In this document: piece by piece, positions 23,057 to 30,776 of the stretch
Layout: each line of letters opens with the position of its first letter
Position numbering within the stretch: position 1 is the stretch's first letter
NCBI GenBank assembly: GCA_913061235.1
Contig: CAJXTB010000007.1
Location: 248,001 to 312,000, forward strand
Source of the DNA: an uncultured Pseudomonadota bacterium
Lineage (GTDB): Bacteria > Myxococcota_A > UBA796 > GCA-2862545
Direction: 5' to 3'
DNA: 64,000 bases
Program-made: the position numbers and the translations under genes
The notes under the pieces: generated by a model
The model's database searches: none
Told to the model about the DNA's origin: nothing
What the model saw: only the letters and a program-made list of their open reading frames with translations

Positions 23057-23103
23057 TTTCGGCGCGCTTTTGGGCGTAGCTATTGAGTTCGGTGGCTCGA
23101 GAG

Positions 23104-23279
23104 TTCAGAGGACAGAGGTCAGAAGTCAGAGCAACCGGCTTGCGCCGGGTGCGTGCTTCGCTGGCCGTCTTTTTTCGGTTCTGCACGGGAGCTTCTACAC
23201 CGATGAAACAGGCGAGCCTAGCCGTGAATCGCTGGCGCCGCGAGGCGTCCGCTCTGACATCTGATGTCTGACCTCTGAC
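23104..23279 (+). repeat. Hairpin-bounded repeat element, copy A (non-coding)
   Basis: 176 bp in the gap between the VWA gene and the ABC permease gene. The left end is four near-identical heptamers of consensus GTCAGAG, the right end four heptamers of its complement CTCTGAC, so the ends are inverted. Just inside the left end is the hairpin CCGGC-TTGC-GCCGG (23135-23148). Just inside the right end is GGCGCC-GCGA-GGCGTC (23234-23249), with a GNRA loop. About 70 bp of unrelated interior carry no ORF. It is related to copies B (28024) and C (29157). Confidence 0.8.
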
Positions 23280-23317
23280 CTCCCGAACGGCGGAAATCTC
23301 TGGCATTCCGGTAATCA

Positions 23318-27969: not shown

Positions 27970-28023
27970 GGCGTTCCTCGCTCTTCGTCATTCTCGTCGA
28001 AGATGTTCTTGGCGATTTGAGAA

Positions 28024-28199
28024 GTCAGAAGACAGATTTCAGAGGTCAGAGCAACCGGCTTGCGCCGGGTGCGTGTGGAGACCGCCAGAAGAGCGCAGCG
28101 TTCATGCAGAAGTAAGCTCGCTAGCTTTGGGTAGGAATCCCAATCTCCTCGCTGGCGCCGAAGGGCGCACGCTCTGACGTCTGACGTCTGACCTCTGAC
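28024..28199 (+). repeat. Hairpin-bounded repeat element, copy B (non-coding)
   Basis: 176 bp, the same length as copy A, in the gap between the DUF58 and VWA genes. Four degenerate GTCAGAG heptamers on the left and four CTCTGAC/GTCTGAC heptamers on the right form inverted ends. It has the same left hairpin CCGGC-TTGC-GCCGG and a right hairpin GCGCC-GAAG-GGCGC (28155-28168). The ~70-bp interior does not resemble copy A by eye. There is no ORF of note. Confidence 0.8.
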
Positions 28200-28246
28200 A
28201 TCCGACCTACGACGCTGTCCGCCACCATTGTTCTCTGTTTGTCGCA

Positions 28247-29110
28247 TCACGAGACAATCCCGAGTCGGCGTAGGTCGCGTAGAATCACGTCTTCTAGGCT
28301 CGCCGTTGTGGGCACGCGCACGTACTTGGCGCCAAGGCGTCGGCAGGTGGCTTCGGTCTCTTCGGCCCAGGCGTGTACCGTGGCTTCGTAGCGGTCCAAG
28401 GTGCGCTCATTGACGCTCACGTGCATCTCCTCGCCGCTCTCTTGGTCTACCAAGACCACGTCTCCGTAGATGTCAGGGCGCAGGTCTACAGGCGACAGGA
28501 TGTGGAAGATATGGACTTCGGAGTTGCGGGAGAGCAGGCGCTTGAGAACGATTTCGAGCGGCTCTTCGTACAGCAAATCGCTGAATAGCAGCGCAATACC
28601 GGCCCCACGCTGACGTGGGTAGGACTCGAGTGCTCTGCCAAGGTCGGTGCCACTGCTGGCGACGACCGCCTCCAGGGTGTTGAAGATGGCATTGGTCGAC
28701 GCGCGTCCACGACGAGGCGGTGCGTAGTGGCTCAAGCCATCCGATAGTCCCGCTACGGCGACTCGGTCCGTTCGTCCCAAGGCCACGAAGGCCAGGGCCC
28801 CAGCGAGCTGGCGGGCGAACTGAAGCTTGTCACCTTCCATCGACTCCGAGCAGTCTAGGAGCAGCTGAACAACGCGGTCTTCTTCCTCTTCAAACAGCTT
28901 GATCCACAGCGTGTCCAGGCGTCCATACAGGTGCCAGTCCAAAAACCGCAGGTCGTCCCCAGGAACGTACTGGCGGTGGTCGGCAAACTCTTGGGATTGA
29001 CCCCGACGTATCGAACGCCGCTCACCCTGACGCGCACCGGCTGCACGTTTGCGAGTCGACAAGCCAAGGCGTGCGAGCTTCTGGAGCAATTTCGGGGGGA
29101 CTAGGGACAT
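28247..29110 (-). CDS. DUF58 domain protein
   Basis: 287 residues, soluble. It shows the DUF58 signature 'YVPGDDLRFLDWHLYGRLDT' (~47-66; usual PGDDxRxIDW), then a VWA-like fold with 'LLLDCSESM' and 'ALLFSDLLYEEP'. DUF58 proteins are standard partners of MoxR ATPases and BatA/VWA membrane proteins. It lies between MoxR (29718) and the VWA pair, separated by repeat elements C and B. Confidence 0.92.
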   Translation of the reverse strand: MSLVPPKLLQKLARLGLSTRKRAAGARQGERRSIRRGQSQEFADHRQYVPGDDLRFLDWHLYGRLDTLWIKLFEEEEDRVVQLLLDCSESMEGDKLQFARQLAGALAFVALGRTDRVAVAGLSDGLSHYAPPRRGRASTNAIFNTLEAVVASSGTDLGRALESYPRQRGAGIALLFSDLLYEEPLEIVLKRLLSRNSEVHIFHILSPVDLRPDIYGDVVLVDQESGEEMHVSVNERTLDRYEATVHAWAEETEATCRRLGAKYVRVPTTASLEDVILRDLRRLGIVS

Positions 29111-29156
29111 TGGACTCGGGGTGAGCTGGTTTTGCGGAGAGCGCAGTGGGAAGGAT

Positions 29157-29620
29157 GTCAGAGGTCAGAGGTCAGAGGTCAGAGCGTGCGACTTGCGTCG
29201 CCAGCGGTTTGGCGGATTCGTTTTGTGTAGCTAGCCAGCATCTTCCGCGTTTCGATAGTTAGAGAGATTAGATGCTGGAAATCCTCGTCCGGCAGGAAAG
29301 TTAAATCCCGGGAAAGGAGAAGTAGATACTCGACTTCGGACAGCGAGCCTGCTGCGATGTCGAGGAAGCGCGCGAAATCACTAAGGGTGTTCCTTCCACA
29401 TCCCTCGGCGATGTTTGTGGGGACAGACGCCGCCGCACGCCGCAGCTGGGACGTCAACCCGAAGCGCTCATCCTTCGGGAATGCGCGAGTCGCTTCGTAC
29501 ACCCGCAACGTCAGCAGGTGACTCTTGCTCCAGACCCCAAGCTTTCGAAAGCTGCGCACCTGTCCTCCTTCGCACCCGGCGAAGGCCGGTTGCTCTGACT
29601 TCTGACCTCTGACCTCTGAC
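29157..29620 (-). mobile_element. Repeat element copy C carrying a four-helix-bundle gene
   Basis: 464 bp. The ends are exact or near-exact inverted arrays of four 7-bp units (GTCAGAG at 29157-29184; its complement at 29593-29620). Reading on the minus strand, the 5' hairpin CCGGC-CTTC-GCCGG (29576-29589) comes next, then AAGGAGG and the GTG of the protein gene, the 3' hairpin GCGAC-GCAA-GTCGC with a GNRA loop, and the 3' heptamers. The gene's TGA stop lies inside the first 3' heptamer. It has no transposase. It looks like a small non-autonomous or RNA-level element related to the 23S rRNA intervening sequences that encode similar proteins; that link is inference. Confidence 0.75.
29179..29559 (-). 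CDS. Four-helix-bundle protein (S23/IVP/Avd-like)
   Basis: 126 residues from the GTG at 29559, with AAGGAGG four bases upstream. It begins 'MRSFRKLGVWSKSHLLTLRV' and contains 'FPKDERFGLTSQLRRAAASV', 'PTNIAEGCGRNT' and 'SLSEVEYLLLLSRDL', all standard marks of the TIGR02436 four-helix-bundle family, first seen inside 23S rRNA intervening sequences and related to the Avd protein of diversity-generating retroelements. These proteins form basic pentamers that bind nucleic acid. The whole gene lies within the inverted ends of element C, and its last codons make part of the 3' hairpin. No reverse transcriptase is in this window. Confidence 0.93.
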   Translation of the reverse strand: MRSFRKLGVWSKSHLLTLRVYEATRAFPKDERFGLTSQLRRAAASVPTNIAEGCGRNTLSDFARFLDIAAGSLSEVEYLLLLSRDLTFLPDEDFQHLISLTIETRKMLASYTKRIRQTAGDASRTL

Positions 29621-29717
29621 TTCCCGCCCCGCGAAAATCTCCGCTCGGCAAGTCGTGAATCCACACCTCCCCACTGGCCGACTAGGCTCACGGAAATCAA
29701 AGCTGACCCAGAAGCTG

Positions 29718-30728
29718 TCACTTGGCGCTGAGTTCCTTGGCCACACGCGGGGCCACTTCGCTGGTCTGGTCCAAGATGAGGTCGATGACCTTGTCGGCGG
29801 TGATGCCGTCGCTGTCTGCCTCGAAGTTGAGTCCCAAGCGGTGCCGCAGTGCGTGATGGGCGACGCTGCGAATGTCCGCGACCGCCACGTGGGTGCGTCC
29901 GGCCAAGAGTGCGTAGGCACGTGCACCCAGAATGATGGCCTGGGCTGCACGAGGACTCGCGCCGTAGCGCAGGTACTGGCGGGAGGCTTCGGTGCCGTGG
30001 TCGCTGTCGGGATGCGTAGCTAGGATGAGGCGCATGGCGTAGTTCATCACCTCCGGCGCAATCTCAACGGTACGCACGATGCGGCGTAGTTGAGAGAGCT
30101 CCTCTGGCGTGAGCACTGCCGTTGCGCGCTGGGTCGCGTTGCCGGTGGTCCGGGCCATGATCTCGACGAGCTCATCAAGGGTAGGAAACGGGACGTCTAC
30201 CTTGAAGAAGAACCGGTCCAGCTGGGCTTCTGGAAGAGGGTAGGTGCCCTCCATCTCCAGCGGGTTCTGTGTGGCGAGCACCAAGAATGGCTTGGGAAGC
30301 GAACGTTGCTTTCCGCCAATGGTCACCTGACGCTCGGCCATGGCTTCGAGCATGGCGGACTGGGTCTTGGGCGTGGCGCGGTTGATTTCGTCGGCCAGCA
30401 GCAGCTGGGTGAACACAGGGCCTTCGCGGAACTGCATGGTTCGTTTGCCTGATTCGTCCTCTTCAAGGATGTGCGTTCCGATGATGTCGGCGGGCATCAG
30501 GTCAGGCGTGAACTGGATGCGTTGGTAGGACAGCGACAGCGCCTCCGACAGCGTACGGACCAGCATGGTCTTGCCGAGACCCGGTACGCCTTCGAGCAGC
30601 ACATGGCCGTCTGCGACAAGCGCGATGATGACGCCGCTGACGACTTCTTCCTGACCCACAAGGACCTTGGCCACTTCATCACGCAAGCGCTGAATGCGCT
30701 CAGCGAAGAAGGCGAGTTCATGTTCCAT
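29718..30728 (-). CDS. MoxR-family AAA+ ATPase
   Basis: 336 residues from the ATG at 30728 (GGAGAC upstream). Walker A 'EGVPGLGKTML' (~46), Walker B 'LLLADEINRATP' (~110), sensor 1 'VLATQNP', and the C-terminal lid ('YGASPRAAQAIILGARAYAL') identify a MoxR. MoxR ATPases act as chaperones that load or remodel VWA-domain proteins. The gene follows the coiled-coil protein and precedes DUF58 and the two VWA genes, the usual order. Confidence 0.95.
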   Translation of the reverse strand: MEHELAFFAERIQRLRDEVAKVLVGQEEVVSGVIIALVADGHVLLEGVPGLGKTMLVRTLSEALSLSYQRIQFTPDLMPADIIGTHILEEDESGKRTMQFREGPVFTQLLLADEINRATPKTQSAMLEAMAERQVTIGGKQRSLPKPFLVLATQNPLEMEGTYPLPEAQLDRFFFKVDVPFPTLDELVEIMARTTGNATQRATAVLTPEELSQLRRIVRTVEIAPEVMNYAMRLILATHPDSDHGTEASRQYLRYGASPRAAQAIILGARAYALLAGRTHVAVADIRSVAHHALRHRLGLNFEADSDGITADKVIDLILDQTSEVAPRVAKELSAK

Positions 30729-30776
30729 GGATGTCTCCAACGAATTTAAAAAGGGTGTTGGACCGTTAGCTTTCGG

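Follow-up and report, generated by a model that had tools for sequence, protein, structure and literature searches.

The locus examined here raises the question of whether a small gene and the inverted arrays of heptamers on either side of it form a single genetic unit and, if they do, what kind of unit this is and how it would move. The gene encodes a member of the S23/IVP family, the rRNA insert proteins that have been puzzling for decades. The window, which is the whole stretch of 64,000 nt that was analysed, carries the element between the genes for a MoxR-type AAA ATPase and a DUF58 protein, all three genes being on the same strand, and not within a 23S or 16S rRNA gene. The features are listed in Table 1.

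Table 1. Positions in the window of the parts of the IVP element, its neighbouring genes and two gene-less copies
Feature	Position	Strand	Remarks
Gene-less copy, second in the window	23102..23284	+	
Gene-less copy	28022..28207	+	In the next operon gap, between the DUF58 and BatA/VWA genes
DUF58 protein gene	28247..29110	-	Downstream co-directional neighbour; PF01882, 115 bits
Left outer terminal inverted repeat, GCGGAGAGCGCAGTGGGAAGG	29134..29154	+	End inferred from the family consensus ...TCTCCGC
Left heptamer array, GTCAGAG x4	29155..29184	+	
TGA stop codon of the IVP gene	29179..29181	-	Within the innermost heptamer
IVP/S23 four-helix-bundle gene, 126 aa	29179..29559	-	GTG start (29557-29559); PF05635, TIGR02436
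End hairpin GCGAC-GCAA-GTCGC	29188..29201	-	Plus strand GCGAC-TTGC-GTCGC; overlaps the last IVP codons
Ribosome binding site AGGAGG	29564..29569	-	
End hairpin CCGGC-CTTC-GCCGG	29576..29589	-	Plus strand CCGGC-GAAG-GCCGG
Right heptamer array, inverted, CTCTGAC type x4	29593..29623	-	One unit is TTCTGAC
Right outer terminal inverted repeat	29621..29644	-	End TCTCCGC; overlaps the drawn array by its first 3 bases
MoxR-type AAA ATPase gene	29718..30740	-	Upstream co-directional neighbour; PF07726, 213 bits

The preliminary description of this DNA had reported four GTCAGAG heptamers and four inverted heptamers enclosing a TIGR02436-type gene, a ribosome binding site, a hairpin at each end, and a TGA stop codon inside a heptamer with the last codons forming a hairpin. 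All of these were confirmed. However, the unit is larger than the 464 bp given there, as outer repeats reach approximately 21-24 bp past the arrays and the element extends from about 29134 to 29644. Sequence conservation outside the arrays drops at approximately 24 bp in the 57 element ends compared. Both end hairpins have perfect 5 bp stems and lie inward of the heptamer arrays. The start codon of the IVP gene was chosen using an alignment with relatives and the position of the AGGAGG, and in a profile search the protein scored 128.7 bits with PF05635 and 124.6 bits with TIGR02436.

The heptamer arrays are far beyond chance in the window, with 16 matches to GGTCAGAGGTCAGA (up to 2 mismatches) where 0.7 are expected, a number reached in none of 100 shuffles. 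The longest inverted repeat at the locus is 53 nt with 79 % identity. There were no matches to Rfam across the whole window and none in PADLOC. A 7 bp direct repeat, GACTAGG (29099-29105 and 29680-29686), was rejected as a target duplication, as about 0.2 such pairs are expected and the ends that it encloses do not match.

In the genome from which the window comes (7.18 Mb in 72 contigs), the heptamer 15-mer has 38 exact matches and its reversed control none. At least 39 paired elements were found when the loci were read, and 38 of them lack the IVP gene, which occurs once in the genome, in the window copy. The heptamers had been taken as a property of the gene-bearing unit; they belong instead to a repeat family. 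All members of the family follow one plan: the outer inverted repeat, some 24 bp long with the end TCTCCGC, is followed by approximately four GTCAGAN units and a hairpin, then comes a middle of about 50-200 bp, and the mirror image of the first parts closes the element. The ends of the IVP copy and of the gene-less copies are approximately 90-94 % identical over about 50 bp. The gene-less middles contain no IVP remnant and are unrelated to the IVP copy, so that the gene-less copies, which share only the ends with it, are not simple deletion products, a possibility that was considered and rejected. The middles are also unrelated to one another despite the conserved ends. A second type of heptamer, GCTCACA, with 6 matches genome-wide, lies directly outside four of the elements (L009, L012, L027 and L029).

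An offset scan of 28 elements of this family gave no signal of a target duplication above chance, and movement of the window copy is therefore something that we infer. The copies in this genome look old or use other ends.

The hairpins vary in sequence and keep their pairing. Among 32 ends from this genome, 89.6 % of cells are paired, against 56.3 % after shuffling (reached in 0 of 500 shuffles), and all six hairpin pairs show changes on both sides, with a covariation of 0.724 compared to at most 0.238 when the alignment was slid. The 32 ends were chosen for a 6-4-6 layout, which somewhat favours the percentage paired and does not account for the double changes. A double-stranded binding site has no need of such covariation, which hence argues for folded single-stranded DNA or RNA. 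The covarying hairpins show that a folded single strand, whether RNA or ssDNA, matters at the element ends.

Finding the heptamers as a common repeat across the genome had been named in the preliminary description as a sign of chance association. They are such a repeat here, and the gene is present in only one of at least 39 copies, as would be expected if a random gene had fallen into it, yet this explanation is refuted by other genomes. A scan of genome contigs yielded 80 IVP loci from at least 16 phyla. With a complementary inverted flank defined as a score of at least 14 in flanks of 200 bp, 59 of 76 IVP loci have such flanks, compared to 1 of 56 segments located 2 kb out. Pairs of flanks taken across loci gave 40 of 912, and the direct orientation 12 of 76; a clear inverted flank is absent from 17 of the 76. 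In viral contigs, a few of which are near-copies of each other, inverted flanks were found at 34 of 36 IVP loci and at none of 22 controls. As the same arrangement with unrelated heptamers recurs in 59/76 and 34/36 of the loci, chance association is wrong and retains almost no probability. The view that the gene and its inverted arrays are one piece is supported by this cross-phylum comparison, not by the window locus alone.

The period of the arrays is also general. Self-similarity at a period of 7 was detected in 55 of 154 flanks and 4 of 133 controls, with 12 at lag 8 and 1-3 at each of lags 5, 6, 9, 10 and 11. The heptamer word differs from genome to genome, and most units fit TN(A/G)G(C/T)NN. 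Of 97 arrays, 66 have a TN(A/G)G core that faces the gene, whichever side they lie on, where about 30 % would be expected. The window element, an IVP ORF between inverted arrays of 7 bp period, fits the IVP heptamer-foldback class that we propose. Heptamer similarity tracks IVP identity (Mantel r=0.204, not reached in 500 permutations), i.e. the heptamers are more alike where the IVP proteins are closer, and this would fit recognition of the heptamers by the protein and also plain common descent. The same architecture around IVP genes in most of the bacteria tested points to what is probably an overlooked class of small transposase-less mobile DNA.

The search of the genome and its relatives for the heptamer signature, as previously recommended, gave the 38 matches in the genome itself. 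The GTCAGAG array was found in none of 57 other genomes and has no counterpart around the IVP genes of relatives, several of which are flanked by other inverted heptamers. We do not regard the missing GTCAGAG as a refutation, because a different heptamer in each genome proved to be the rule. Named phage records gave no IVP match. A tree of IVP proteins was rejected as proof of transfer between phyla, since it has too few columns and 44 of its 71 inner branches are open.

Among the relatives, G014 is one where the reversed control pattern matched 70 times, and the IVP gene adjoins such an array. Gene-less elements of about 200 bp dominate there. No signal of a target duplication was found in this family, and its heptamer arrays are invariant and so uninformative for covariation. 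One element end in this genome (L215) has a tandem duplication of the array and outer inverted repeat. In another genome (G081), diverged IVP-like genes occur as facing pairs about 45 bp apart in several copies (e.g. C6:420045-420679), and these look like a multicopy two-gene element.

Evidence for mobility comes from relatives. Many copies of one IVP element, which has hexamer arrays (CCCGAT/GGGAGC) and the ends GGGCGCGAT...ATCGCGCCC, lie at unrelated sites in G004, a genome of the same family (L161-L177). The ten hexamer copies compared are of high identity, several of them with deletions in the ORF, and this element has multiplied recently. Two of its copies are flanked by flush 9 bp duplications, GTCGCGAAG (L167) and CCCGCCGAA (L176), and the same was found for two heptamer IVP elements with the ends CAATGCCGNTCACTTA, namely GGCTAGGCG (L161 in G004) and GCTTAGCCC (L052 in G049, apparently one record with L081 and so counted once). 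This makes four IVP elements with exact 9 bp duplications, from two families with unlike ends; further hexamer-type copies (L163, L164, L166 and L173) have no visible duplication.

One IVP ORF in G004 is interrupted by a gene-less heptamer element of approximately 190 bp (L172, 1733-1925), and sibling copies show the empty site. There are about 37 further matches to this gene-less element (L172 and L294-L313), nearly all of them 96-99 % and most 97-99 % identical, and many at contig ends. Full copies with both flanks read lie in a duplicated NCTAGN (6 bp), with the exception of two copies that have a right flank in common, which is probably an artefact of the assembly. The idea that NCTAGN serves as target more generally was rejected, with 0 of 106 loci showing it, as were general flanking direct repeats in IVP loci, which showed a small excess with the arrays themselves as the longest repeats. 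Terminal repeats together with target duplications indicate insertion into DNA after a staggered cut.

The comparison of orthologous gaps with and without the element, which had been proposed for this locus, bore out mobility at the gap between cas6 and cas4: an IVP element is present there in Anabaena sp. 90 and absent from Dolichospermum UHCC 0315A, which has another palindrome in the gap. In pANA02 of Anabaena sp. 90 (L245, 2937-3450), the array provides the stop codon of cas6 and runs into the frame of cas4, and the first residues of the annotated Cas4 (WP_015081716.1) are encoded by the heptamers. Where IVP genes have been reported 'in' cas loci (PMC3936711), this is explained by insertion between operon genes. 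In a Pseudanabaena galeata plasmid (L242, 2230-2965), the gap from cas6 to cas4 holds an IVP element whose AAAGCTA array is long and nearly perfect, and in a related plasmid from strain ABRG5-3 a solo (ATTACGA)4-like array stands alone in this gap.

The elements contain no transposase, which upholds their earlier description as transposase-less, and no nuclease or transposase motif is recognised in IVP, whose residues S45, N49 and E52 are invariant. The strongest alternative is that they are MITE-like and moved in trans by the DDE transposases of ISs, with IVP as a hitch-hiking passenger, regulator or stabilizer. This is a serious rival, though we consider it unlikely. It accommodates the terminal inverted repeats, the exact target duplications and the majority of gene-less copies, and the NCTAGN 6 bp duplication is identical to the IS481 signature (PMC3053399, PMC2516522). 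Duplication length differs between families, at 9 bp for the IVP copies and 6 bp for the gene-less NCTAGN family, and this too fits different transposases acting in trans. However, no IS481 transposase above the curated cut-off was found in G004, where three weak partial matches lack the ends of the element, and the element ends do not start with TGT, unlike published IS481-family ends. The Y1 transposase (PF01797) was found neither in the window's own genome nor in G004. Among the Y1 and IS481 families searched, no transposase with matching ends was found. A passenger would also not be expected to keep inverted arrays across at least 16 phyla or to track the heptamer sequence, and the 9 bp duplication is common to IVP copies of two unlike families. 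This shared duplication and the conservation with arrays across phyla would speak for an active role of IVP.

An RNA-based mobile unit had earlier been thought plausible, i.e. a folded transcript that is reverse-transcribed together with IVP and reinserted, in an Avd/DGR-like or intron-like manner. IVP resembles Avd (PMC10053308), the ends are foldbacks with covarying hairpins, and rRNA intervening sequences are processed by RNase III (PMC4990558). The gene also tends to lie in the sense of the operon: with neighbour directions taken from a simple gene caller, it is co-directional with both neighbours at 51 of 71 IVP loci and opposite to both at 4 of 71. Against this, the sole reverse transcriptase match in the window's own genome is a truncated fragment on another contig (L210; G000:C51:6341-6607), no DGR reverse transcriptase was found in that genome, and the one full-length reverse transcriptase in each of G004 and G014 is that of a group II intron. 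Terminal inverted repeats with exact 9 bp or NCTAGN duplications in relatives are also a better match to DNA cutting, and an RNA-based unit is decidedly improbable.

In our preferred reading, the window contains a single coding copy of a foldback element that has no transposase, in which IVP would bind the folded ends, a partner enzyme would cut and insertion would follow a 9 bp staggered cut; we give this a probability of roughly 0.55. IVP is proposed as an end-binding factor with a partner nuclease or transposase in view of the lack of a transposase in the elements and of the Y1, IS481 and reverse transcriptase results above. It is very probable that mobile elements whose coding part is the IVP gene exist as a class, and the odds that IVP acts directly in mobility are about even. 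IVP would bind the single-stranded folded ends, comprising hairpin and heptamer array, as ssDNA at a fork or in a transcript, and would bring the two ends together with an enzyme that cuts and that comes from the cell or from a different element. Insertion into intergenic DNA would then follow the staggered cut. The same machinery would serve, in trans, the gene-less copies that share these ends, and these are more numerous than the gene copy, in the way that REPINs exceed their RAYT gene in number.

In this scheme, copies survive mainly downstream of genes, where the heptamers may help. Since 7 cannot be divided by 3, an array of CTCTGAC units has TGA in all three frames of one strand, and such positions may be tolerable for that reason. 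In the window's own genome, with gene context assigned by a simple codon-usage gene caller, none of 39 copies is inside a gene, 21 are between convergent genes, 15 between co-directional genes and 1 between divergent genes. Elsewhere, IVP loci are intercistronic in hem, arg, sdh and met operons (gene names read from sequence), e.g. as hemF-IVP-hemB in Flavobacterium and in the arg operon of Pedobacter. These positions and the stop codons in every frame of the array are also what an element that is not mobile now would show, with arrays and hairpins as a REP/BIME-like device for transcript processing or termination and IVP as a host RNA-binding protein acting on it. However, purifying selection also yields a position bias, and such a device does not account for copies in G004 that multiplied recently and lie in exact target duplications, for the presence and absence at an orthologous gap, or for the heptamer element inserted in an IVP ORF. 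We regard it as improbable.

A more far-reaching form of the preferred reading is put forward only tentatively, and we would not rate it as high as even. Here, S23/IVP would be the mobility protein of autonomous foldback elements found throughout bacteria, its pentamer recognizing arrays and hairpins and driving DNA insertion with a 9 bp stagger while having no recombinase of the DDE, HUH, serine or tyrosine type itself, and rRNA intervening sequences and unexplained heptamer repeats would be members or relics. The solved structures of two IVP relatives, 2gsc and 2rld, contain five chains each. Should movement prove to depend on IVP, the protein would represent a new type of mobility protein, and the element would possibly be of a new kind.

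No paper that links IVP genes with inverted heptamer arrays and with copies lacking the gene was found in a search that covered mostly literature outside subscription journals. The nearest known things are rRNA intervening sequences (IVS), REPIN/RAYT systems and MITEs. RAYT is a Y1 HUH transposase, whereas the window gene belongs to PF05635 and there is no PF01797 gene in its own genome or G004; the repeats of the window family are also different, being heptamer arrays with hairpins, and there are target duplications in relatives. What is shared with REPIN/RAYT is a single-copy gene lying in the inverted repeats that also bound many intergenic foldback copies, which lack the gene and vary in their middles (PMC3116915). 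MITEs and foldback transposons are likewise short, with terminal inverted repeats and many copies that lack a transposase, and the target duplications in relatives are a further likeness. They differ in that the elements described here have a conserved non-transposase coding gene across phyla and tandem-array ends with a sequence particular to each genome, and no parent transposon was found. Avd of diversity-generating retroelements has a related four-helix-bundle fold (PMC10053308), and differs in that the window's own genome has no DGR reverse transcriptase.

The heptameric intergenic repeats of Xanthomonas and Nostoc are arrays with many inverted pairs (70 in X. campestris) that are rarer between divergent genes (Rehm 2015, PMC4692102). 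They are intergenic in the same way, and X. campestris has an IVP protein, XCC0516 (PDB 2gsc). However, they were published as G-quadruplex repeats with no link to mobility or to IVP (PMC4692102).

The 23S rRNA IVS of Leptospira, Coxiella and CPR share the protein family and the arrangement of a PF05635/TIGR02436 ORF in the loop between complementary ends. The window element differs from them in lying between protein genes and in belonging to a genome-wide family, with terminal repeats and target duplications in relatives. The kinship with rRNA IVS that had been suggested from the gene is supported by the Coxiella IVS, where tandem heptamers (GACAGAT) adjoin the S23p ORF on its upstream side and vary in copy number among strains (PMC4990558). 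ORF-less versions of rRNA insertions are recorded in CPR (PMC11270868). The classical rRNA IVS fit as one niche of the element class, which joins the function of the widespread PF05635/TIGR02436 proteins, the origin and spread of rRNA IVS, and the excess of heptamer repeats between bacterial genes.
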